From NCBI GenBank assembly GCA_015057055.1, contig SVFE01000021.1:1-40470 (forward strand): a stretch of 40,470 nucleotides of DNA, read 5' to 3'. Position 1 is the first letter of the stretch. Every line of letters starts with the position of its first letter. The stretch is from Lachnospiraceae bacterium. GTDB taxonomy: Bacteria; Bacillota; Clostridia; Lachnospirales; Lachnospiraceae. The notes beneath the pieces are model-generated. The model was not told the DNA's origin, ran no database searches, and saw nothing but the letters and a program-made list of their open reading frames with translations. Of the stretch, positions 5,953-34,646 are shown piece after piece. The translations under genes and the position numbers were made by a program.

Positions 5953-7134
5953 ATATTTTTTCAATGTTTCAACCTTGTCTGTCTTTTCCCATGGAAGATT
6001 TAAATCATTTCTTCCGAAATGTCCGTAGGCTGCGGTCTGCTTGTAAATGGGACGTCTAAGATCCAGCATTTTAATGATTCCTGCGGGTCTTAAATCAAAG
6101 TTCTCACGTACAATTTCCACAAGCTTGGTATCTTCTACCTTACCGGTGCCAAAAGTATCTACCATAACGGAAGTAGGCTGTGCCACACCGATGGCATAGG
6201 AAAGCTGAATTTCACATTTTTCTGCAAGACCTGCTGCTACGATATTCTTTGCCACATATCTTGCTGCATAAGCTGCAGAACGGTCCACCTTGGTGCAATC
6301 CTTTCCGGAGAATGCTCCGCCGCCGTGTCTTGCATATCCGCCGTAGGTATCAACGATGATTTTACGGCCGGTAAGACCGGAATCGCCGTTAGGTCCGCCG
6401 ATAACGAAACGTCCGGTGGGGTTGATAAAGTATTTGGTATTCTCATCCAGCATCTCCTTGGGAAGAATGGGGTCAAATACGTATTTTTTAATATCCTCGT
6501 GAATCTGCTCCTGACTCACTTCTGCGGCATGCTGGGTAGAAAGTACCACTGCCTCCAGACGCTTCGGAACTCCGTTTTCATCATATTCTACGGACACCTG
6601 ACTCTTACCGTCTGCGCGAAGGTAAGGAAGAGTTCCGTCCTTACGAACCTTGGTCAGCTGTCTTGTCAGCTTGTGAGCCAAGGAAATCGGGTAAGGCATA
6701 TATTCCTCAGTTTCGTTGGAAGCGTAACCAAACATCATACCCTGGTCCCCTGCACCGATGGCTTCGATTTCCTCATCGGTCATTTTGTTTTCTTTTGCTT
6801 CCAATGCTTTATCCACGCCCATGGCAATGTCCGCCGACTGCTTGTCCAGTGCAACGATAACACCGCAGGTGTTGGCATCAAAGCCCTTTGCAGAATCATC
6901 ATAACCGATTTCCGCAATAGTCTCTCTTACGATTTTCTGAATATCCACCTGCGCTTTGGTGGTAATTTCACCCATAACCAGAACAAGTCCTGTGGTAATT
7001 GCTGTTTCACATGCCACACGGCTCATGGGGTCCTGCGCCATCATGGCATCCAACACTGCGTCAGAAATGTTATCGCAGATTTTGTCGGGATGACCTTCGG
7101 TTACAGACTCTGAAGTAAATAATAATTTTTCCAT
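5947..7134 (-). CDS. metK: S-adenosylmethionine synthetase
   Basis: The 395-residue enzyme makes S-adenosylmethionine from methionine and ATP in the cytoplasm. It starts with the family signature [18 protein letters not shown], contains the hexapeptide region [12 protein letters not shown] and the loop [19 protein letters not shown], and has the usual length. The frame stays open a further 47 codons upstream. The start at 7134 is chosen because it has an AGGAGG site at ideal distance, matches the conserved N-terminus, and because the upstream extension runs through a terminator hairpin. Expression is under a SAM-I riboswitch, giving product feedback control. The gene is followed by a stem-loop terminator before dnaE. 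Confidence 0.97.
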
Positions 7135-7202
7135 CTTACGTTCCTCCTGAATATAATAGATATTTATTGAAGCATTCGGAAAAACCCATAGATTTTTCCA
7201 AA

Positions 7203-7228
7203 CAAAAAATCCGCTTACATAAGCGGAC
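7203..7228 (-). terminator. Riboswitch-controlled terminator of metK
   Basis: On the minus strand TCCGCTTA and TAAGCGGA form an 8-bp stem (7210-7227) with a two-base loop, followed by a T-run (7204-7210). It is positioned directly downstream of the SAM-I aptamer and upstream of the metK ribosome binding site, as expected for the expression platform. Confidence 0.85.
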
Positions 7229-7237
7229 CACACAAAA

Positions 7238-7365
7238 TCTCTTATGATCCTCTTATCGTTCGACATCGGCCGCAAAGCCGTTCTCGCTCAGGTAGGCACC
7301 TTCCTTTGTAAGGGGTTGCCGTGGTTTCACAGGTCCTATGTACCTCCGCCACTCTGAATAAGAGA
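7238..7365 (-). ncRNA. SAM-I (S-box) riboswitch
   Basis: The minus-strand leader has the S-box order: a P1 arm CTCTTATTC (7356-7364), then GAGTGGCGGAGG, GGACCTGTGAAACC and CGGCAACCCC, then a P3/P4 region and the closing P1 strand GATAAGAG (7250-7257). A second copy of the closing strand (CATAAGAG, 7239-7246) lies just after and may take part in switching. The S-box family binds S-adenosylmethionine and terminates transcription when it is abundant. The location upstream of metK is the classical one. Confidence 0.93.
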
Positions 7366-8881: not shown

Positions 8882-10177
8882 TTACTGTGCAATTCGGAAT
8901 CTGAACTTCTTCAAATCCCGGTCGGAATCAATTTTCTCGATTCGTGCTCCCAGTCCCTGAAGTTTCTTTTCAAAGTCCTCATAGCCTCGTTCAATATATT
9001 TAATGTCTTCAATTACCGTTTCACCTTCTGCCACCAGAGCTGCCAACACAAGGGCCGCACCTGCACGAAGATCCGGGGCGGTGATACGCGCTCCCGTGTA
9101 TTTTTCCACACCGGTAATAATTGCCGTGTTGCCTTCCACCTTAATGGATGCTCCCATCCGCATCAGTTCATCCACATATTTGAAACGGTTGTCAAAAATA
9201 CTTTCCGTTACGATACTGGTGCCGTGAGCAAGTCCGAGCGCCACCGTCATCTGAGGCTGCATATCCGTAGGAAATCCCGGATAAGGCAGGGTCTTAATCT
9301 GCGTACTGCTAATCGCCTTGTCCGCAATAACGCGAACCGCATCGTCGTACTCTTCCACCCGGCAACCAATTTCCAAAAGTTTTGCCGTAATACATTCCAA
9401 ATGCTTGGGAATGACATTCTTTACCGTGACATCGCCGCGACTGGCTGCTGCCGCCATCATAAATGTTCCGGCCTCTATCTGATCCGGAATAATCGCATAT
9501 TCCGTGCGATGCAGTTTCTCCACACCTTTGATACGGATTACGTCCGTACCGGCGCCTTTGATATTGGCACCCATACTGTTCAAAAAGTTGGCCAAATCTA
9601 CTACGTGGGGCTCTTTTGCTACATTCTCGATAATGGTCTTTCCGGTAGCCATCGTTGCCGCCATCATAATATTAATCGTCGCACCAACGGAAACCTTATC
9701 CATGAAAATATGGCTTCCACGAAGTTCCTTTGCTTCGGCGATAATGCTTCCGTGAGCAATTCGAACTTCCGCGCCGAGGGCTTTAAATCCCTTGATATGC
9801 TGGTCAATTGCACGGATTCCGATGTTACATCCGCCGGGAAGGGGAACCTCCGCCTTCTTGTATTTTCCCAGCAACGCGCCAATCATATAGTAGGACGCGC
9901 GGATTTTCTTCATATATTCATCGTCTATAATACAGTCGCAAATTTGCGAACTATTCATTTTTACTGTGTGACGTTCCGAACGGTCAATCATGACACCGAT
10001 ATTTTCCATTGCCTTAAGCAATACATTGGTGTCCCGCACATCCGGCACGTTTTCAATCACAACGGGCTCATCTGTCATAACTGCTGCTGCAAGAATGGCA
10101 AGCGCTGCATTTTTTGCACCGCCGATTTCCACTTCACCCCGCAACGGCTGACCGCCCATGATTGCGTATTTTTCCAT
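8882..10177 (-). CDS. murA: UDP-N-acetylglucosamine 1-carboxyvinyltransferase
   Basis: The 431-residue protein is an EPSP-synthase-like enzyme that transfers enolpyruvate from PEP to UDP-GlcNAc, the first committed step of peptidoglycan synthesis, in the cytoplasm. The substrate-binding GGAKNAAL (19-26, K22 N23) and active-site loop PGGCNIG (114-120) are present. C117 corresponds to the cysteine that fosfomycin alkylates. Length is normal. The start has a GAGGTG site and a promoter with a perfect -10 box just upstream. Firmicutes often have two paralogues (MurA and MurZ); which one this is cannot be decided here. Confidence 0.95.
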   Translation of the reverse strand: MEKYAIMGGQPLRGEVEIGGAKNAALAILAAAVMTDEPVVIENVPDVRDTNVLLKAMENIGVMIDRSERHTVKMNSSQICDCIIDDEYMKKIRASYYMIGALLGKYKKAEVPLPGGCNIGIRAIDQHIKGFKALGAEVRIAHGSIIAEAKELRGSHIFMDKVSVGATINIMMAATMATGKTIIENVAKEPHVVDLANFLNSMGANIKGAGTDVIRIKGVEKLHRTEYAIIPDQIEAGTFMMAAAASRGDVTVKNVIPKHLECITAKLLEIGCRVEEYDDAVRVIADKAISSTQIKTLPYPGFPTDMQPQMTVALGLAHGTSIVTESIFDNRFKYVDELMRMGASIKVEGNTAIITGVEKYTGARITAPDLRAGAALVLAALVAEGETVIEDIKYIERGYEDFEKKLQGLGARIEKIDSDRDLKKFRFRIAQ

Positions 10178-10261: not shown

Positions 10262-10321
10262 AAGTTTATGCAAAACGCTTCTTTTTAAAACACCCGAAGC
10301 AAAGTCCCGGAAAAGAAAATG

Positions 10322-10350
10322 CGGGGAAGGTCGCAACGCTTCCTTCCCCG
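10322..10350 (-). terminator. Terminator downstream of the TIR gene pair
   Basis: CGGGGAAGG (10322-10330) and CCTTCCCCG (10342-10350) form a perfect 9-bp GC-rich stem with an 11-base loop. On the minus strand it is followed by a T-rich stretch (ATTTTCTTTT). It closes the TIR operon before the murA promoter. Confidence 0.7.
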
Positions 10351-10405: not shown

Positions 10406-11767
10406 TCAGTTTGTTCCATACATCCTTTCTTCCAGATCATCTTCATCTTCCATAGGAATTTCTGAAGTTTCTGCCTTGTAGTAACCAAACGAAGAACAGG
10501 TATACATATCTTCCCCATTGGTACAAATACACATTGTTTGATAACCATATGCTTCAAACGCATACCCGTTATAGTAATTCACACCATCCAACTCAATGAT
10601 GAAAAATACTCCATCCTCAACCCGATCCAGCATCTCTGACACATCTTCTTCGTCCAAAAATTCTAAACCTAAATCTACAACATCCTCTTTTTCATATTCT
10701 TCCATGGAATACTCTCCCGTATAATGATCCATAAGCGTCTTCGAGAATATATAATAGGTTCCGTCTTCTAAAAAATAGTATTCGTAAAAAGTCGTTTCAA
10801 AGGACGCACCTTCCAGTTCAAATAACACCACAGTCACATGAATCGTCCGTTCTTTACACCAAGGACCGGAAACAACAATATCCGTCGTACCCTCTTCCAG
10901 CCCGATAATTGTTGCGCTGCCGCGGTTGAATTCTACCTCCGCAATACTATCATCCTCTACGGTCCAAGTCAGTTCCGGCTTACCGATATCCTTGTAGTTC
11001 AAAACACTGACGGAATATTCTTCACCAACCACAACCGTAACAGAGGTATCTTCGACGCGGATTGTTTTCTTTTCAAACAGACCAAGGGCAAATGCAACAA
11101 TAACCGCAATTGCCGCAACGCCAACCAGCACCAACAGCAAGGGCCAAACCTTCTTCTTTGCTTTCTTTTCTTTGGGTGCTTTGGGCGCTTTTGCCTTCTT
11201 TTCTTTTACCGGTTTCACCGCACTATTTTGTGGCTGCACCATATTGCTTACCGGTTGTACCGGTGCCTCATATACAGACATTTCTGCCACCACCGGTGCT
11301 TCTGCTGCCTCATACACCTTTGCCGTTTCCGTTGACTTCTGTTTTGTCTTGTCGATACCCCTGGCAGAAAAAAGTTTCTGATAAGCATCTTCCGTATTAT
11401 CGTTATCATATTTATACCAGAAAATTGCCTGAATCCGGTTCATGCGCATTGCCATTCCTCCGGAAAGATTTACTTCCTCCAGATAAACCAACAGCTGCTC
11501 TTTATCCAACTCACGAGAATAATTCAACTCATCCTTGCAATTCTTTGAACCGATATAACCATTACTGATAAATGCGATAAAATAGGAACACGCGCTTACG
11601 TGCTTCGCAATATTTTCATCCCACTCCGTCCCAGGATCGATTCCTTCATCGTACCAAACATTGTAGCCTTCCGACTGAAGTCTTTCGACAATTTTAATTA
11701 CCTTGTCCGAATCTCTATGTGAATAACTGATAAAAATATACGGTTTTGTTTCATCACATTTAACCAT
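10406..11767 (-). CDS. TIR domain - single TM - Big domain membrane protein (copy 1)
   Basis: The 453-residue protein starts with a TIR domain (about 8-120): YIFISYSHRDSDKV (10-23), YNVWYDEGIDPGTEWDENI (35-53) and CKDEL (77-81). E80 aligns with the catalytic glutamate of NAD-cleaving TIR domains. A linker (about 140-207) ends in a lysine-rich stretch (KEKKAKAPKAPKEKKAKKK), then one membrane span (about 208-231). The basic flank places the N-terminus inside. Outside are a Big-like immunoglobulin fold (about 235-313, with the motifs VVVGEEYSVSVLNY and SATIIGLEEGTTDI) and an unrecognised domain (about 318-453) containing TTFYEYYFLEDGTYY. It lies 66 bases after its paralogue, which is probably in the same operon, and has an AAGGAGAGA site. 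Topology and domains are clear; function (signalling, NAD cleavage or defence) is unknown. Confidence 0.85.
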   Translation of the reverse strand: MVKCDETKPYIFISYSHRDSDKVIKIVERLQSEGYNVWYDEGIDPGTEWDENIAKHVSACSYFIAFISNGYIGSKNCKDELNYSRELDKEQLLVYLEEVNLSGGMAMRMNRIQAIFWYKYDNDNTEDAYQKLFSARGIDKTKQKSTETAKVYEAAEAPVVAEMSVYEAPVQPVSNMVQPQNSAVKPVKEKKAKAPKAPKEKKAKKKVWPLLLVLVGVAAIAVIVAFALGLFEKKTIRVEDTSVTVVVGEEYSVSVLNYKDIGKPELTWTVEDDSIAEVEFNRGSATIIGLEEGTTDIVVSGPWCKERTIHVTVVLFELEGASFETTFYEYYFLEDGTYYIFSKTLMDHYTGEYSMEEYEKEDVVDLGLEFLDEEDVSEMLDRVEDGVFFIIELDGVNYYNGYAFEAYGYQTMCICTNGEDMYTCSSFGYYKAETSEIPMEDEDDLEERMYGTN

Positions 11768-11833
11768 TTATCTCTCTCCTTCGTATCTCTCCCCGGTTAT
11801 CTTTGCATCTTCGTTCCCGGCATCCGAGAATCA

Positions 11834-13519
11834 TCAGTTTGTTCCATACACCATTTCTTCCAGATCATCTTCATCTTCCATGGAAATATCTGAAATCTCT
11901 AACGCAAAACAGGTAAATGTATCATAGATAACCGTGTCCTCACCATTGGTACAAATATACATGATTTGGTAACCAAATCCATCATACAACTGGCCTTGAT
12001 AATAATTCTCGCCGTCCAAATCAACACGGAAAAATTGTCCGTCATCAACCCGGTCCTGCATTATCGATAAATCGGTTTCGGAGGCATAATCTAAAACATC
12101 ATCTTCATCGCACTCTTCAATAGAATATTCTCCCACATAATGATCCCTATCTGTCTTCGAAATCAAATAGTAGGTTCCGTTTTCCAAAAAATAGTATTCG
12201 TAAAAAGTCGTTTCAAAGGATGCACCTTCCAGTTCAAATGACGCTTCTTCCACAGTTACATGAATCGTCCGGTCTTTACACCAGGGACCGGAGACAACAA
12301 TATCAGTCGTGCCCTCTTCCAGCCCGATAATCGTTGCACTTCCGCGGTTGAATTCTACCTCCGCAATACTATCATCCACTACGGTCCAGGTCAGTTCCGG
12401 CTTACCGATATCCTTGTAGTTCAAAACACTGATGGCATATTCTTCGCCAACCGCAACCGTAACGGAGGTATCTCCGACACGGATTGTTTTCTTTTCAAAC
12501 AGACCAAGAGCAAATGCAACAATAAGCGCAATCACCGCAACGACCACCAATACCAAAAGCAAGGGCCAAACTTTTTTCTTTGCTTTCTTTTCTTTGGGCG
12601 CTTTGTCTTTTACTTTCTTTTCTTTGGGCGCTTTTCCCTTCTTTTCTTTGGGCGCTTTGGGTGTTTTTGCCTTCTTTTCCTTTCCCGGTTTCACCGCACT
12701 ATTTTGCGGCTGCGCCATAATGCTTACCGGTTGTACCGGCGCCTCATATACAGGCACTTCTGCCACCGGAGTTTCTTCCACTACCGGTACTTCTACCACC
12801 ACCGGTACTTCTACCACCACCGGTACTTCTTCTGCCACCGGTACTTTCTCTTCTACCACCGGTACTTCTTCCGCCACCGGCGCTTCTTCTGCCACCGGCA
12901 CTTTCTCTTCTGCCACCGGCGCTTCTTCTGCCACCGGCGCTTCTTCTGCCACCGGCACTTCTTCCGCCATAGGCACTTCTTCTGCCACCGGTACATCTTC
13001 CACAGCAGGTGCTTTTTCTGCGGCCGGAGTTTCTTCCACAGTGGGAACTTCCTCTTCCGCAGGTGTTTCTTCTGTTGCATACGCTCCCATGTTCCGGGCT
13101 TTCTCAATTCCTTTGGTCGAAAACAACTTCCGATAAGCTTCCTCTACGCCCACTTTCTCCAAATCATACCAGAGAATCGCTTGCAAACGATTAAGACGCA
13201 TCGCCATACCGGCGGGAAGTTTCACATCTTCCAAATATACCAAAATCTGCTCTTTATCCAAATCACGGGCATAATTCAACTCATCCTTGCAGTTGCTTGA
13301 CCCAAGATATCCTTCACTGATAAAAGAAATAAAATAGGAACATTCATTTACATGATTGGCAATGTTCTCATCCCATTCCGTACCGGGATCAATACCTCCG
13401 TCATACCAGACATTGTATCCCTCCTGGCACATCCGCTCCATAATTTCAATTACTTTCTCCGAATTCCGGTGAGAATAACTGACAAATATATATGGTTTCC
13501 TCTCGTCACAATTAATCAT
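11834..13519 (-). CDS. TIR domain - single TM - Big domain membrane protein (copy 2, long linker)
   Basis: This 561-residue protein is a paralogue of the downstream gene: TIR domain (about 8-120, E80 in CKDEL), membrane span (about 318-341), Big-like domain (about 345-425) and the same C-terminal domain with TTFYEYYFLENGTYY. The extra length is almost all in the cytoplasmic linker (about 141-317). That linker consists of an acidic array of PVAEE/PVVEE units followed by a basic array of KAPKEKK units. Similarity continues about 40 bases past both stop codons, showing a tandem duplication. A GGAGGAACT site precedes the ATG, and a near-consensus promoter at 13612-13640 probably drives both genes. 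The retained glutamate permits NADase activity, but this is only inference. Confidence 0.85.
   Translation of the reverse strand: MINCDERKPYIFVSYSHRNSEKVIEIMERMCQEGYNVWYDGGIDPGTEWDENIANHVNECSYFISFISEGYLGSSNCKDELNYARDLDKEQILVYLEDVKLPAGMAMRLNRLQAILWYDLEKVGVEEAYRKLFSTKGIEKARNMGAYATEETPAEEEVPTVEETPAAEKAPAVEDVPVAEEVPMAEEVPVAEEAPVAEEAPVAEEKVPVAEEAPVAEEVPVVEEKVPVAEEVPVVVEVPVVVEVPVVEETPVAEVPVYEAPVQPVSIMAQPQNSAVKPGKEKKAKTPKAPKEKKGKAPKEKKVKDKAPKEKKAKKKVWPLLLVLVVVAVIALIVAFALGLFEKKTIRVGDTSVTVAVGEEYAISVLNYKDIGKPELTWTVVDDSIAEVEFNRGSATIIGLEEGTTDIVVSGPWCKDRTIHVTVEEASFELEGASFETTFYEYYFLENGTYYLISKTDRDHYVGEYSIEECDEDDVLDYASETDLSIMQDRVDDGQFFRVDLDGENYYQGQLYDGFGYQIMYICTNGEDTVIYDTFTCFALEISDISMEDEDDLEEMVYGTN
12571..12685 (-). 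repeat. Tandem repeat coding for Lys/Ala/Pro units in TIR copy 2
   Basis: Degenerate repeats of about 24-30 bases encode KAPKEKK-type units (about residues 280-316), just before the membrane span. The other TIR gene has a shorter version of the same stretch, so the array has changed in copy number since duplication. Confidence 0.7.
12745..13070 (-). repeat. 15/18-bp tandem repeat coding for PVAEE units in TIR copy 2
   Basis: About 20 short units, mostly 15 bases with some 18-base variants that add a lysine, encode PVAEE, PVVEE and KVPVAEE (about residues 150-258). The paralogue lacks the array. Several units are nearly identical, suggesting recent slippage or recombination. Confidence 0.85.
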
Positions 13520-13611: not shown

Positions 13612-13640
13612 ATTTTACTTGAAACCCTTAGTAATGTCAA
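13612..13640 (-). promoter_or_regulatory. Predicted promoter of the TIR gene pair
   Basis: TTGACA (13635-13640) and TAAAAT (13612-13617) on the minus strand are spaced by exactly 17 bases, about 90 bases before the first TIR gene. No terminator was seen between the upstream peptidase gene and this site. Confidence 0.65.
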
Positions 13641-13700: not shown

Positions 13701-15305
13701 TTATAAGTATTCCAATGGATTTACCTGCACACCATTAATCAGGATTTCAAAGTGCAAATGCGGTCCGCTGCTTCGTCCCGTGTTACCACTGGCCGCAATC
13801 ACCTGCCCCTGGCTCACGTAATCACCTACATTTACATAAATTCTGCTCAAATGCGCATACCGAGTCTGACGGCCGTCAGGATGGTTGATATACACCACAT
13901 ATCCGTATCCGCTTCCCCAGCCGGCCCGTGCTACCGTTCCGCCGGAAGATGCATAAATGCTGGTTCCGATAGGTGTTGCCCAATCCACGCCGCGATGATA
14001 TGTGGATGCTCCTGCCACCGGTGCATTTCGTCCGCCAAAGCCGGAGCTTAATCGACCGCCGGACAGAGGCTTAATATAAGTAGGCGGTACGATGGTTCCG
14101 ATTTCCACCACTTTCGCCACCGGAGATGCAATAATCTGCTCGTATAAAACTGCCGTATCCAGCACCGTATCATTGCTATAGGTTACTCTGGCCACCACAT
14201 CATGATAGCCTGCCGAAGGTTGCTGAAGCGTTACCATCTGGTTGCTGTACCATTCGTCGTTGTACACATACTCAATGGGCAAATCATAGGTTTCCTCATA
14301 ACGGGTATCCACCGTCCAGATAACGGATAATTCCGGTTCCGGTACGGTAATAATAAGTTCCTGATCCACATAGATATAGGAATTTTCGTTCTCCAGTGAA
14401 TCATTTAACGCAATAATATCATCCAGGGGAAGTCCCACCGTTAAAGCAATCTCCGACAATGTATCTCCGGGCTGGACTTCGTAGATTTGCTGAATTTCCT
14501 GTTCCTCTGTCAAAAGATTGGTTGCGTAGGCTATATCATCAATATCACTTTCCGGCAAATAGGCTTCCACAACCTCAATAGGCTCCGAAAAACTCATTTC
14601 CGTGATTCCGAGTGTAAAGGATTCAAATCCCTCCTCTTCCGGGAACAAATCCTCTTCCGACAAGGCAAAAACCTGCTCTGCTCCCGCCATTCGAAGCACC
14701 TCTTCTTCCGGCTCCTCTTCCTGCTGCACCGCGCTAATTTCTGCCGTTAAAACATTCAACTCTCTTTGGCTGTCCCTTGTCAGGGATACCGCAAAAGCAC
14801 CATCGGTACTGTATCGGTCCACCGCAGTTTGGAACATTTCCCGGACCTCTTCCTCACTGGCAAGATTTACAACCACGCCGTTTACTTTCACCGAGTAGGC
14901 GTGCTCTAATGTCTGCACCTCATTGGCGGACAACACCGCCGCCATATTTGTTACAATCGTTTCCTCCGAATCCACGCTTCCCCAGATTACTTCTTCACCG
15001 GTCGTGGTAATTTCCGGGAACTCCGTAAACACCAAATCCTCCGTGCCCTCTGCCAATACCCGTTTCGCTTCGCTGTAGTATTCATAGACGCGCGCTCTGT
15101 CATCTGTCACGCCCACTGCCTGGCCATTCATGTAAATGGTGAAACGATTGTCGCCTTCTGCCACATAGCCTTTGATTTCCGGGAAAAGCCAAATGTTCAA
15201 AGCAATCACCACCACCGCCACGCGAAGTACCGATAAGGTAATCAAATGATGATACTTTGACTGATTTTTCTTTCTGTTTTCTTTTCTATCACTTCTGTTA
15301 CTCAA
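13701..15305 (-). CDS. M23 family cell-wall metallopeptidase with LysM and G5-like domains
   Basis: The 534-residue protein has an N-terminal membrane anchor (about 22-41) and a long region of low similarity. A LysM domain follows (about 275-320, YEVQPGDTLSEIALTVGLPL), then a G5-like segment (about 325-403) and a C-terminal M23 domain (about 415-530). Zinc ligands H437 and D441 (HRGVDW) and H518 (HLHFE) are present, with catalytic H485 (RYAHLS). M23 enzymes cleave peptidoglycan cross-links or linkers, and LysM binds glycan, so a cell-surface role in wall remodelling is likely. The start codon is TTG, chosen because GGAGAG lies seven bases before it and no better ATG is near. A good promoter precedes it, divergent from dinB. 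Confidence 0.9.
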   Translation of the reverse strand: MSNRSDRKENRKKNQSKYHHLITLSVLRVAVVVIALNIWLFPEIKGYVAEGDNRFTIYMNGQAVGVTDDRARVYEYYSEAKRVLAEGTEDLVFTEFPEITTTGEEVIWGSVDSEETIVTNMAAVLSANEVQTLEHAYSVKVNGVVVNLASEEEVREMFQTAVDRYSTDGAFAVSLTRDSQRELNVLTAEISAVQQEEEPEEEVLRMAGAEQVFALSEEDLFPEEEGFESFTLGITEMSFSEPIEVVEAYLPESDIDDIAYATNLLTEEQEIQQIYEVQPGDTLSEIALTVGLPLDDIIALNDSLENENSYIYVDQELIITVPEPELSVIWTVDTRYEETYDLPIEYVYNDEWYSNQMVTLQQPSAGYHDVVARVTYSNDTVLDTAVLYEQIIASPVAKVVEIGTIVPPTYIKPLSGGRLSSGFGGRNAPVAGASTYHRGVDWATPIGTSIYASSGGTVARAGWGSGYGYVVYINHPDGRQTRYAHLSRIYVNVGDYVSQGQVIAASGNTGRSSGPHLHFEILINGVQVNPLEYL

Positions 15306-32315: not shown

Positions 32316-34646
32316 TTAGTACGAAATATTATTCAGTTCCGTTACTTCAAATGTTTCCATATCCATGGCCACACAAAGCGGCATATTACTGAAATCGTAC
32401 ATATACATTACAAGCTGGTCATTTACAACCTGCAAGTCATTTGCATACCAATAGTTGTAATCCACGTCCTCGTAGAAGTTAAGAACTACTTCCTCGCCGG
32501 TGGTTACATCCACACGCACCAAGTCTTCTCTGTCATTTGCAGTATAGAAGATATAATTCTCATAGAATGCCACCATGTAAGTATCGTAATTCAAACCATA
32601 ATGGGAATTTCCGAGCTGAATGCGGTTTCCGTCAAGGTCCATTGCATACGCGGTTACTTCCACGGTGTAATCATCATACATAACGTAGAACAGATAATCT
32701 CCGCATACGCGAACCACGTCTACCTCATATGCATAATCATTGTAATGAACATAGCCCAAATCTTCTCCGGTATAAGCATCCAACACTTCCCAGGTATATC
32801 CGTCAAAAACATATACATACGTATCGTCTACATCATAAGCAAATGTGCTGTATTCCCAGATTTCCTGGATGTTTCCGCTAAAGTCACACATGCGAAGGGA
32901 AGAATAGTCCGTATAATATACCATATCATTTTCTACGATAATGGTGCTGGCTGCATAACCGTCATCCAACACAGTTACCTGTCCGTCCAAGGTTGCCATA
33001 CAAAGCTGAGCATTTCCGGAGTTCGTTTCTATGGAATAGAAAATCTTATCTCCGGACATTACAAGACGTATCAGACTACCATCCACGTCAACAATCCGCT
33101 CCGGTGCCGCTCCGCTCAAAAGGTCATCATTGGAAATACCGTAAATATCTCCGCCGATATCCGTTATAAAATAGCCATTGTCACCGCTCATATACCAGCC
33201 GCTGTGATTTTCACCCGGAAAGTTGGTTCCGGGAACAGTTCCGGAAGTAACAGAGGTATCCGGCGTTGTGGTTGTTGTGCCGGTATCCGGTTCCGGTTCT
33301 GCAGGCGCAGAAGCAAAATAGTTGTTTTCCAAGGTATCTGCATCTTCCATGGAGATATCATCCGCACCGCTGACAACTCCCCAGCCGGCATCATAAATTG
33401 CAGCATCTTCTCCGTTATAGCAAATCATAAACACAAAATTCTCGGTTGTGCTGTATCCGCCGTTATAAATATCTTCTTCTTCCTCAATCTCCAGTGCATA
33501 GAATACGCCGTCCTCAGCTTCTGCAAGCAGTGCTTCCACATTATCCGCACCGATTTCATCTTCTGCTTCATCAAGGTCCATTTCCTCTACGGAATACTGA
33601 CCCTTGATATAATTTTCCTGAGCAGAATAAATTTCGTAGAAAGTTCCGTCTTCCATGAAATAATATTCAATTCCGTCGTCGGTCTCCCATGCGCTTCCTT
33701 CTACTTCCAGTTCAATGGGCTCTTTTACAATAATGGTACAGGTATATTCTTCCGATGTGGAAAGCAAACCAAAAAGTGCCGGTGCTGTGGAAATCGTAAG
33801 AACGGTTTCTCCTTCTTCCAAACCTTCCAGTGTGAATTTACCGCCCTTTCCTTCCTCTACGGAAACGATGGATTCATCTTCTACAGACCAAACCAATTCC
33901 GGCTTATCCAATACCAGATAATTGATGATGCTGAGCGTTTCTTCCTCGCCGATATGTACGGTCAGTTCCGTTGCATCCAATTCCAACACATTATCTTCCT
34001 GGAAAATAATCACTGCAAGAACACCGAGTGCTGCCACGATAAGAAGGCAGATGATAATGATTACCGCAACCAAACCACCTTTTCCTTTTTTCTTTTCGCC
34101 CGATGCCCCGTTTGTTCCGGTAACATAGGAAGGTGCCACCGCGACATTATTCATCGGCGGCATGTTCATTCCCGGCTGTCCCATAGGGGGCATACCCATT
34201 CCCGGCTGCTGGAATCCGTTATTCATAGGTGCCGCAGGCGTGGGATTTACCGGTGTTACAGGCGCAGCTGCCGGCTGTTCATTTACCACAGGGGCGGCAG
34301 GCGCAGGATTTACCGGCGTTACAGGCGCAGCTGCCGGCTGTTCATTTACCACAGGGGCGGCAGGCGCGGGATTTACCGGCGCTACAGGTGCAGCTGCCGG
34401 CTGTTCATTTGCCACAGGGGCGGCAGGCGCGGGATTTACCGGCGCTACAGGTGCAGCTGCCGGCTGTTCATTTACCACAGGGGCGGCAGGCGCGGGATTT
34501 ACCGGCGCTACAGGCGCAGCTGCCGGCTGTTCATTTGCCACAGGTGCTGCAGGCGCAACCGGAAACTGGTAACCGCACTGGTTACAGAATTTCGTCGTAG
34601 CACCATTGGCTTTACCGCACAGCGGACAAGATTTCATGTTATCCAT
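32316..34646 (-). CDS. Zinc-ribbon, TM, Big-domain and propeller-like membrane protein
   Basis: This 776-residue protein starts with a zinc ribbon (C7, C10, C21, C24). A cytoplasmic Pro/Ala-rich linker follows with about five copies of a 21-residue unit (about 31-140), then a methionine/proline stretch (about 140-170). After a lysine-rich segment comes one membrane span (about 190-215). Outside are a Big-like domain (about 221-308) and a module (about 315-445) with EYYFMEDGTFYEIYS. Both closely resemble the ectodomain of the two TIR proteins at 10.4-13.5 kb. A Thr/Pro spacer leads to a C-terminal region (about 480-776) with repeated YFITDIGGDIYG- and MVYYTDYSS-type strands, compatible with a DUF5050-like beta-propeller. 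It has a good ribosome binding site (GAGAGGAG), promoter and terminator of its own. The function is unknown; an envelope sensor is plausible. Confidence 0.82.
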   Translation of the reverse strand: MDNMKSCPLCGKANGATTKFCNQCGYQFPVAPAAPVANEQPAAAPVAPVNPAPAAPVVNEQPAAAPVAPVNPAPAAPVANEQPAAAPVAPVNPAPAAPVVNEQPAAAPVTPVNPAPAAPVVNEQPAAAPVTPVNPTPAAPMNNGFQQPGMGMPPMGQPGMNMPPMNNVAVAPSYVTGTNGASGEKKKGKGGLVAVIIIICLLIVAALGVLAVIIFQEDNVLELDATELTVHIGEEETLSIINYLVLDKPELVWSVEDESIVSVEEGKGGKFTLEGLEEGETVLTISTAPALFGLLSTSEEYTCTIIVKEPIELEVEGSAWETDDGIEYYFMEDGTFYEIYSAQENYIKGQYSVEEMDLDEAEDEIGADNVEALLAEAEDGVFYALEIEEEEDIYNGGYSTTENFVFMICYNGEDAAIYDAGWGVVSGADDISMEDADTLENNYFASAPAEPEPDTGTTTTTPDTSVTSGTVPGTNFPGENHSGWYMSGDNGYFITDIGGDIYGISNDDLLSGAAPERIVDVDGSLIRLVMSGDKIFYSIETNSGNAQLCMATLDGQVTVLDDGYAASTIIVENDMVYYTDYSSLRMCDFSGNIQEIWEYSTFAYDVDDTYVYVFDGYTWEVLDAYTGEDLGYVHYNDYAYEVDVVRVCGDYLFYVMYDDYTVEVTAYAMDLDGNRIQLGNSHYGLNYDTYMVAFYENYIFYTANDREDLVRVDVTTGEEVVLNFYEDVDYNYWYANDLQVVNDQLVMYMYDFSNMPLCVAMDMETFEVTELNNISY
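34231..34560 (-). repeat. 63-bp tandem repeat coding for Pro/Ala-rich units
   Basis: Five nearly identical 63-base units plus a partial sixth encode the 21-residue unit PAPAAPVVNEQPAAAPVAPVN (with A/V and T variants). The period is exact, so copy number can vary by slippage without frameshift. The low divergence suggests recent expansion. Confidence 0.9.

Follow-up and report, generated by a model that had tools for sequence, protein, structure and literature searches.

Two tandem genes on a 40,470-nucleotide stretch of the genome of a gut Lachnospiraceae bacterium (assembly GCA_015057055.1, contig SVFE01000021.1, positions 1 to 40,470; hereafter, the window) encode membrane proteins, TIR2 and TIR1, that each consist, from the N terminus, of a TIR domain, a linker, one membrane span, an immunoglobulin (Ig)-like domain of the Big type, and a C-terminal module. 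Judging from sequence comparison, both genes appear to be chimaeric, with a TIR half that is kin to TIR-span-Sel1 proteins and an ectodomain from a zinc-ribbon/span/Big family of the same genus. We read the products as single-pass receptors in which clustering of the ectodomains would lead to cleavage of nicotinamide adenine dinucleotide (NAD+) by the TIR domains and hence to growth arrest or to stress or defence signalling, and we put the probability of this reading as a whole at roughly one half. The bacterial TIR defence proteins of the literature cited below sense inside the cell. If true, the combination of an internal TIR domain with exchangeable outer domains would amount to surface-to-cytosol TIR signalling and could be compared directly with Toll and IL-1 receptors.

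The layout of the two proteins was proposed earlier from the DNA letters (the original prediction), and it has been confirmed by Pfam, structure prediction, and charge analysis. The N-terminal domains score above the Pfam cut-off for TIR_2 (PF13676; 3e-19 for TIR2) and are modelled confidently with a TIR fold (predicted local distance difference test score, pLDDT, 92). The ectodomain was also modelled confidently (pLDDT 90), as a Big/Ig-like stalk, and the structural matches of this model cover residues 4-91. The additional outer module, called unknown in the original prediction, has no convincing family match: Pfam at E values up to 5 returned chance-like matches only, and a profile search of the PDB gave matches mainly on the Big part, together with one to part of a lactate dehydrogenase (E 0.15). 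As regards topology, a flank rich in Lys and Arg marks the cytosolic side of a membrane span (the positive-inside rule). The 30 residues before the span carry 12 positive and 2 negative charges in TIR1 and 15 and 4 in TIR2, and the 30 residues after it carry 3 and 5, and 3 and 4, respectively. Because the Lys/Arg excess lies on the TIR side, the TIR domain is placed in the cytosol and the ectodomain outside (N-in/C-out), as had been proposed, and prediction lends this charge-based assignment good support. Among 32 single-span TIR proteins from the family survey described below, 27 have a higher net charge next to the TIR domain than on the opposite side of the span.

The two halves can be traced separately. 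On the ectodomain side, the window itself contains a paralogue, P0001, in which a zinc ribbon (scoring below the Pfam cut-off), a Pro/Ala linker, and a span precede the same Big domain and C-terminal module, followed by a further C-terminal region. P0001 is 34% identical to the TIR proteins over query residues 171-450 (37% in a second comparison), and the window ectodomain aligns with it and with 10 relatives. The span, Big domain, and C-terminal module of this family are common to the window TIR proteins, with the N-terminal zinc ribbon replaced by TIR. Genus relatives of the ectodomain lie under a zinc ribbon in L011 (and, by eye, in L018) and on a short anchor in L013-L017; in L009 and L010 the ectodomain lies under a Pro-rich linker that is cut at the contig end, and L012 is cut before the span. 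A query with the full protein matched 26 of 35 genus genomes at E 1e-5, and TIR joined to this ectodomain was found in one of the 35, the window's own. When an ectodomain profile was run over 294 genomes of the order, matches outside the window's genome were mostly to the Big part. On the TIR side, TIR1 shares 77-80% identity in this domain with three TIR-span-Sel1 proteins (L034, L037, L038), versus 71% with TIR2. These proteins have the same order of TIR, linker, span, and outer part, but they carry a Sel1 ectodomain where the window proteins have Big plus the C-terminal module, and a gene for an RCK-RyR-like protein adjoins theirs. We infer that the swap ran from zinc ribbon to TIR. One further frame (L247:3383-4834, in G030) contains two zinc ribbons, a TIR domain, a span, and Sel1-like repeats, with an RCK-RyR-like gene adjoining, and forms a natural link between the zinc-ribbon and TIR types of N terminus.

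Compared with each other, TIR1 and TIR2 are mosaic. Protein identity is 70.5% in the TIR domain, 89.4% in linker and span, 92.5% in Big, and 62% in the C-terminal module. Of the fourfold sites, 19 of 28 are different in the TIR part (where synonymous divergence, dS, is saturated) versus 16 of 57 in linker, span, and Big (P 0.0009). This silent-site mosaic suggests that the ectodomain halves of the pair share a younger ancestor, through gene conversion or exchange. In the C-terminal module 7 of 27 fourfold sites differ, similar to linker, span, and Big, so its lower protein identity points to a module that changes faster in protein. Positive selection on it was considered and rejected (ratio of nonsynonymous to synonymous divergence 0.43, below 1), leaving faster change only.

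The original prediction described the topology as an inverted Toll-like one. This is a fair description of the order, but the order is not special to these proteins. A PF13676 profile run over 150 genomes of the window's family (Lachnospiraceae) matched in 71, over cut-off in 70, giving 123 TIR_2 matches once 7 of 130 rows below the cut-off were excluded. In 30 of the 123, an N-terminal TIR domain precedes a single span and a tail that is 100 residues long or longer; the others comprise 2 with a shorter tail, 2 with several spans, 63 N-terminal TIRs without a detected span, and 26 with the TIR domain further in, although these class counts are approximate (e.g., L159 was classed as soluble because its weak span lies under the 1.9 hydropathy cut-off). 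The 30 tails match diverse Pfam families, among them (25 of 54 families listed) THOC3-type beta-propeller (9), LRR_4 (4), Sel1 (3), and DUF6273 (3), tallied by member so that a single protein may match several. Within this set, the window's ectodomain occurs only in the window's two proteins, which are 74% identical to each other there and no more than 18% identical to the other 28 tails (forced alignment). The order is thus recurrent in these bacteria and is not in itself what is new; new are the hybrid nature of the ectodomain, the exchange of parts that is on record, and a TIR-to-RyR circuit that relatives may have. Among the papers listed by searches of a partial collection (at most 20 per list, judged by title and abstract start), none was an account of bacterial N-TIR/span/ectodomain receptors. 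Five loci (L046, L049, L051, L052, L053) encode TIR-span-leucine-rich-repeat proteins, the parts of Toll in reverse order, with the repeats judged by eye. At L186 there are three single-span TIR genes, one with an ectodomain (6398-7336) that by eye is C-type-lectin-like and two that are DUF6273-like.

Several known systems offer comparisons. PASTA Ser/Thr kinases (Stk1/PrkC) consist of a cytosolic enzyme, a linker, a span, and outer domains, and N-in/C-out is ordinary for bacterial single-pass receptors. The window proteins have the same order, with TIR in place of the kinase; a PASTA kinase NCBIfam match is weak, far below cut-off, and confined to linker and span. Animal Toll-like and IL-1 receptors also have one span, TIR inside, and a ligand-type domain outside, and the IL-1R family also has Ig-like domains (PMC7075850). 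However, their chain runs in the opposite order (ectodomain, span, TIR), and here TIR is N-terminal and the outer domain is of Big type; the window proteins gave no leucine-rich repeat match. Thoeris ThsB shares the TIR domain, but PADLOC matches of the window TIRs to it are weak; the ThsA_Macro profile found nothing in the window's genome, a result to be read with the facts that the control was also silent and that SIR2-type ThsA was not searched. The TIR NADases activated by clustering (SARM1, AbTir, SPARTA, Cat1, SpbK) have the TIR fold and the Glu in common with the window TIRs, but no outer sensor domain.

In the mechanism that we favour, both genes encode receptors with TIR inside, one span, and a Big stalk with a C-terminal recognition module outside, which would have arisen when a TIR half was joined to an ectodomain of the zinc-ribbon/span/Big family and which would be expressed as a two-gene unit of their own. 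An envelope or surface signal would bind or cluster the ectodomains (envelope sensing by this putative sensor is plausible) and bring the TIR domains together. Clustering would then start NAD+ cleavage, because known TIR NADases build a composite active site between two TIRs and are activated by clustering, as in SpbK (PMC12847820) and Cat1 (PMC12162218). Since no RyR-type partner was found in the genome, the output would consist either of a loss of NAD+ or of an ADP-ribose signal to which another protein responds, and the outcome would be growth arrest or stress or defence signalling.

The original prediction also took the conserved Glu (E80) as catalytic. The residue is indeed kept: it corresponds in alignment to the Glu found in Cat1 and in 7uxr, is invariant in the 32 rows of the TIR alignment (A2), and is present in 32 of 32 single-span survey TIRs (60/63, 25/26, and 1/2 in the other survey classes). 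NAD+ cleavage is nevertheless less sure than was implied, because the residue four before E80 (E-4) is Asn76 in the window TIRs versus Trp in Cat1 and 7uxr. Asn is found at E-4 in 27 of 32 rows of A2 and Trp in none, and among the survey TIRs Trp occupies E-4 in 17 of the 32 with a single span and in 42 of the other 91 (gaps in 16 of 123). WxxxE is the label for a Trp four residues before the Glu, a residue that may not be required in every NAD-cleaving TIR. SpbK is an NADase without the aromatic residue that holds adenine in SARM1 and AbTir (PMC12847820), so the pocket tolerates change, though perhaps at a different position than E-4. Overall, we regard NAD+ cleavage by these TIRs as plausible but unproven.

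An alternative is that the TIR domain is a scaffold rather than an enzyme and, like that of animal Toll-like receptors (TLRs), brings further TIR proteins or proteins of the cytosol to the membrane. The Asn at E-4 in this subfamily fits such a role, as does a structural search with the TIR model, in which the animal receptor TIR TRR-2 and SARM1 tied for top by Z; moreover, a Glu is often present here in TLR subgroup 3.2 as well, and is not necessarily a sign of activity (PMC7075850). We consider a scaffold unlikely, given the invariance of E80 and the latitude seen in SpbK; nor was an adaptor identified, although one more short TIR_2 frame (262 amino acids; G000:C2:1025-1372, L205) lies elsewhere in the genome.

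It should be noted that several results weigh against the receptor-enzyme reading. Besides the Asn, and the fact that a conserved Glu alone is no proof of activity, Weagley et al. recorded activity in lysates for 28 of 152 bacterial TIRs, including TIR_2 proteins of Coprococcus, Dorea, and Roseburia, with false negatives possible (PMC9092222). As for the origin, an approximately unbiased (AU) test did not reject sister status of the two TIR domains (p 0.49), so the mosaic may be gene conversion inside the tandem pair; an earlier claim that the two TIRs are non-sisters was dropped for this reason. Finally, no defence island was seen: PADLOC matched 3 of 10 window proteins. One, of RelA/SpoT type and at a distance of 6 kb, matched part of the PDC-S33 model (E 1.1e-24); the other two are of HD type (Cas3 models, 6e-6) and PDDEXK type (1.3e-4).

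A candidate reader of a TIR signal was found beside related TIR genes. Comparison of 48 neighbouring open reading frames from six TIR loci revealed one family that adjoins TIR in L034, L037, and L038, to which a profile added L043, so that it is present at 4 of the 7 closest TIR-span-Sel1 genes; it was not found at L039, nor at L036 and L008, whose flanks are short. The only other matches were four pairs, of which L039 shared two with L034 and two (GGDEF, M23) with the window. The L034 partner has five N-terminal hydrophobic segments (lax cut-off) and a Rossmann region with weak TrkA_N-type matches, which the L037 copy lacks, and the C-terminal region contains EHxRW, invariant in 13 rows. Pfam did not call RyR in the copies of L034, L037, and L038, and PF02026 found nothing in G017 despite an L037-type partner there. 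We call the partner RyR-like because of the EHxRW region and because its profile also matches PF02026-positive frames (in G011, G014, G016, G023, G025, G028, and G034, among others).

With repeats merged, TIR-bearing loci removed from the controls, and loci from partner searches (L240-L261) left out, an RCK-RyR match was found at 17 of 140 distinct TIR places (794,804 bases) versus 0 of 74 loci without TIR (272,520 bases; Fisher P 0.0008), a contrast that is indicative only, because the profile was built partly from the same loci and the controls came from other searches, are non-random, and lie in many cases in one genus. The adjacency itself is plain: no more than 201 bp separates 15 of the 17 matches from the TIR frame, and 13 are at E <1e-20, although 4 are weak (L055, L121, L144, L183). 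Searches of the genus from the partner side placed an RyR gene (PF02026) directly before a TIR-span-TPR/Sel1-like-repeat gene in G025 (L250) and G034 (L249). These two genomes are near relatives of the window's. Among loci of at least 6 kb, the association with single-span versus other TIRs was not significant (5/19 vs. 6/62, P 0.12). At L241, L242, L243, L244, and L245 the partner adjoins a gene with a TVGYGD-type potassium-channel pore, with no TIR frame in the available flanks.

There is a reason for such a pairing, in that phage proteins with RyR domains bind or cleave the 2' and 3' forms of cyclic ADP-ribose (cADPR; PMC13232231), and the adjacency suggests a TIR-to-channel nucleotide signal in the relatives, a specific and testable proposal for a TIR nucleotide signal that acts on the membrane. 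It would also be possible for the window's TIRs to make an ADP-ribose-type signal for a divergent or unassembled channel-like partner of this kind. We find this quite unlikely, because the window's genome (2.23 Mb in 104 contigs, 96.2% complete) contains no RCK-RyR-like protein by search with a single protein (E 1e-10), PF02026, or the 13-row profile (1e-3); by profile, 11 of 35 genus genomes have one. Burroughs et al. (2015) reportedly dealt with TIR and RyR domains as parts of bacterial conflict systems, and they or Yirmiya et al. (2025) may already predict a TIR-RyR link. More speculatively, and with considerable doubt on our part, gut Clostridia may have a class of membrane TIR receptor-enzymes with a varying outer part (Big, leucine-rich repeats, Sel1, propellers, and by eye lectin-like), a reverse-order counterpart of Toll/IL-1R. 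In many of these a TIR messenger of ADP-ribose type would act on the adjoining RCK-RyR channel, a circuit like that from cADPR to the ryanodine receptor, and the window pair would be a hybrid that lost or never had the channel.

The pair is flanked on one side by an M23/LysM/G5 peptidase gene (13701-15305) and on the other by a gene of the EPSP-synthase family (8882-10177) that is murA-like, as judged by position and length. Among 29 genus relatives with a murA-like locus, 17 have M23 immediately upstream of murA, on the same strand, with a gap of 94-313 bp and no TIR matches, and the nearest relative at this locus (L068, 87%) is among them; in the others, M23 is matched in a different orientation (6) or not at all within the available flank (6). 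The simplest reading is that the TIR pair was inserted at the M23-murA junction in the window's lineage. The neighbours would suit a cell-wall monitor with an envelope-stress or housekeeping role unrelated to phage, as would the presence of the ectodomain under zinc ribbons and short anchors. We think this improbable: the pair has its own promoter-like site and terminator-like hairpin, the M23-murA arrangement is absent at five other-ectodomain TIR loci with flanks (L036 flanks are short, and the M23 of L039 is unrelated), and the TIR-ectodomain combination occurs in a single genus genome. No conserved neighbour of the pair was found, the flanking genes being housekeeping ones. Carriage by phages or plasmids was considered and rejected, with matches to the TIR part only in 1 of 50,697 GenBank phage records (32% identity) and 2 of 72,556 plasmids, and no relatives found in IMG/VR when it was scanned with a single peptide pattern from each of A3 and A2.

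TIR2 and TIR1 are probably one transcription unit, because a promoter-like site precedes TIR2 and a hairpin follows TIR1 (Table 1). The former is a consensus match only, in a scan that found 9 sites of this type versus 6.0 expected; the latter was equalled in 5 of 200 shuffles and is missing from the sites that the same scan listed.

Table 1. Positions of the TIR gene pair, its parts and signals, and related genes (window coordinates unless a locus is named)
Feature	Position	Strand	Remarks
TIR2 gene (P0003, 561 aa), first of tandem pair	11834..13519	-	GGAGG Shine-Dalgarno-like motif before ATG
TIR1 gene (P0002, 453 aa), second of pair	10406..11767	-	66 bp downstream of TIR2
TIR domain, TIR2 aa 11-132	13124..13489	-	Pfam TIR_2 3e-19
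TIR domain, TIR1 aa 11-132	11372..11737	-	
E80 codon, TIR2	13280..13282	-	
E80 codon, TIR1	11528..11530	-	
Linker, TIR2 aa 140-319	12563..13102	-	repeat-rich Pro/Val/Glu, then Lys-rich
Linker, TIR1 aa 140-209	11141..11350	-	short
Membrane span, TIR2 aa 320-338	12506..12562	-	hydropathy 3.53
Membrane span, TIR1 aa 210-228	11084..11140	-	hydropathy 3.18
Big/Ig-like domain, TIR2	12254..12487	-	92.5% identity with TIR1 Big
Big/Ig-like domain, TIR1	10832..11065	-	
C-terminal module, TIR2	11837..12253	-	no convincing family match
C-terminal module, TIR1	10409..10831	-	mostly beta; no convincing family match
Promoter-like TTGACA-17-TAAAAT, upstream of TIR2	13612..13640	-	11/12 consensus positions
Terminator-like 9-bp hairpin and T-rich tail, 3' of TIR1	10310..10350	-	z -2.25
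Ectodomain paralogue P0001 (776 aa)	32316..34646	-	
RCK-RyR-like genes beside TIR-span-Sel1 genes	L034:5917-7797, L037:11002-12882, L038:5167-6864, L043:2-1438		

The long Pro-Val-Glu linker of TIR2 is encoded by tandem repeats (12757-13003; periods 18, 36, and 57 bp) that are mostly missing in TIR1. The P0001 gene is flanked by hydrolase and mfd genes. The sources of the eight named sequence relatives, seven of them Lachnospiraceae, include cow, cattle, horse, sheep, and roe deer.

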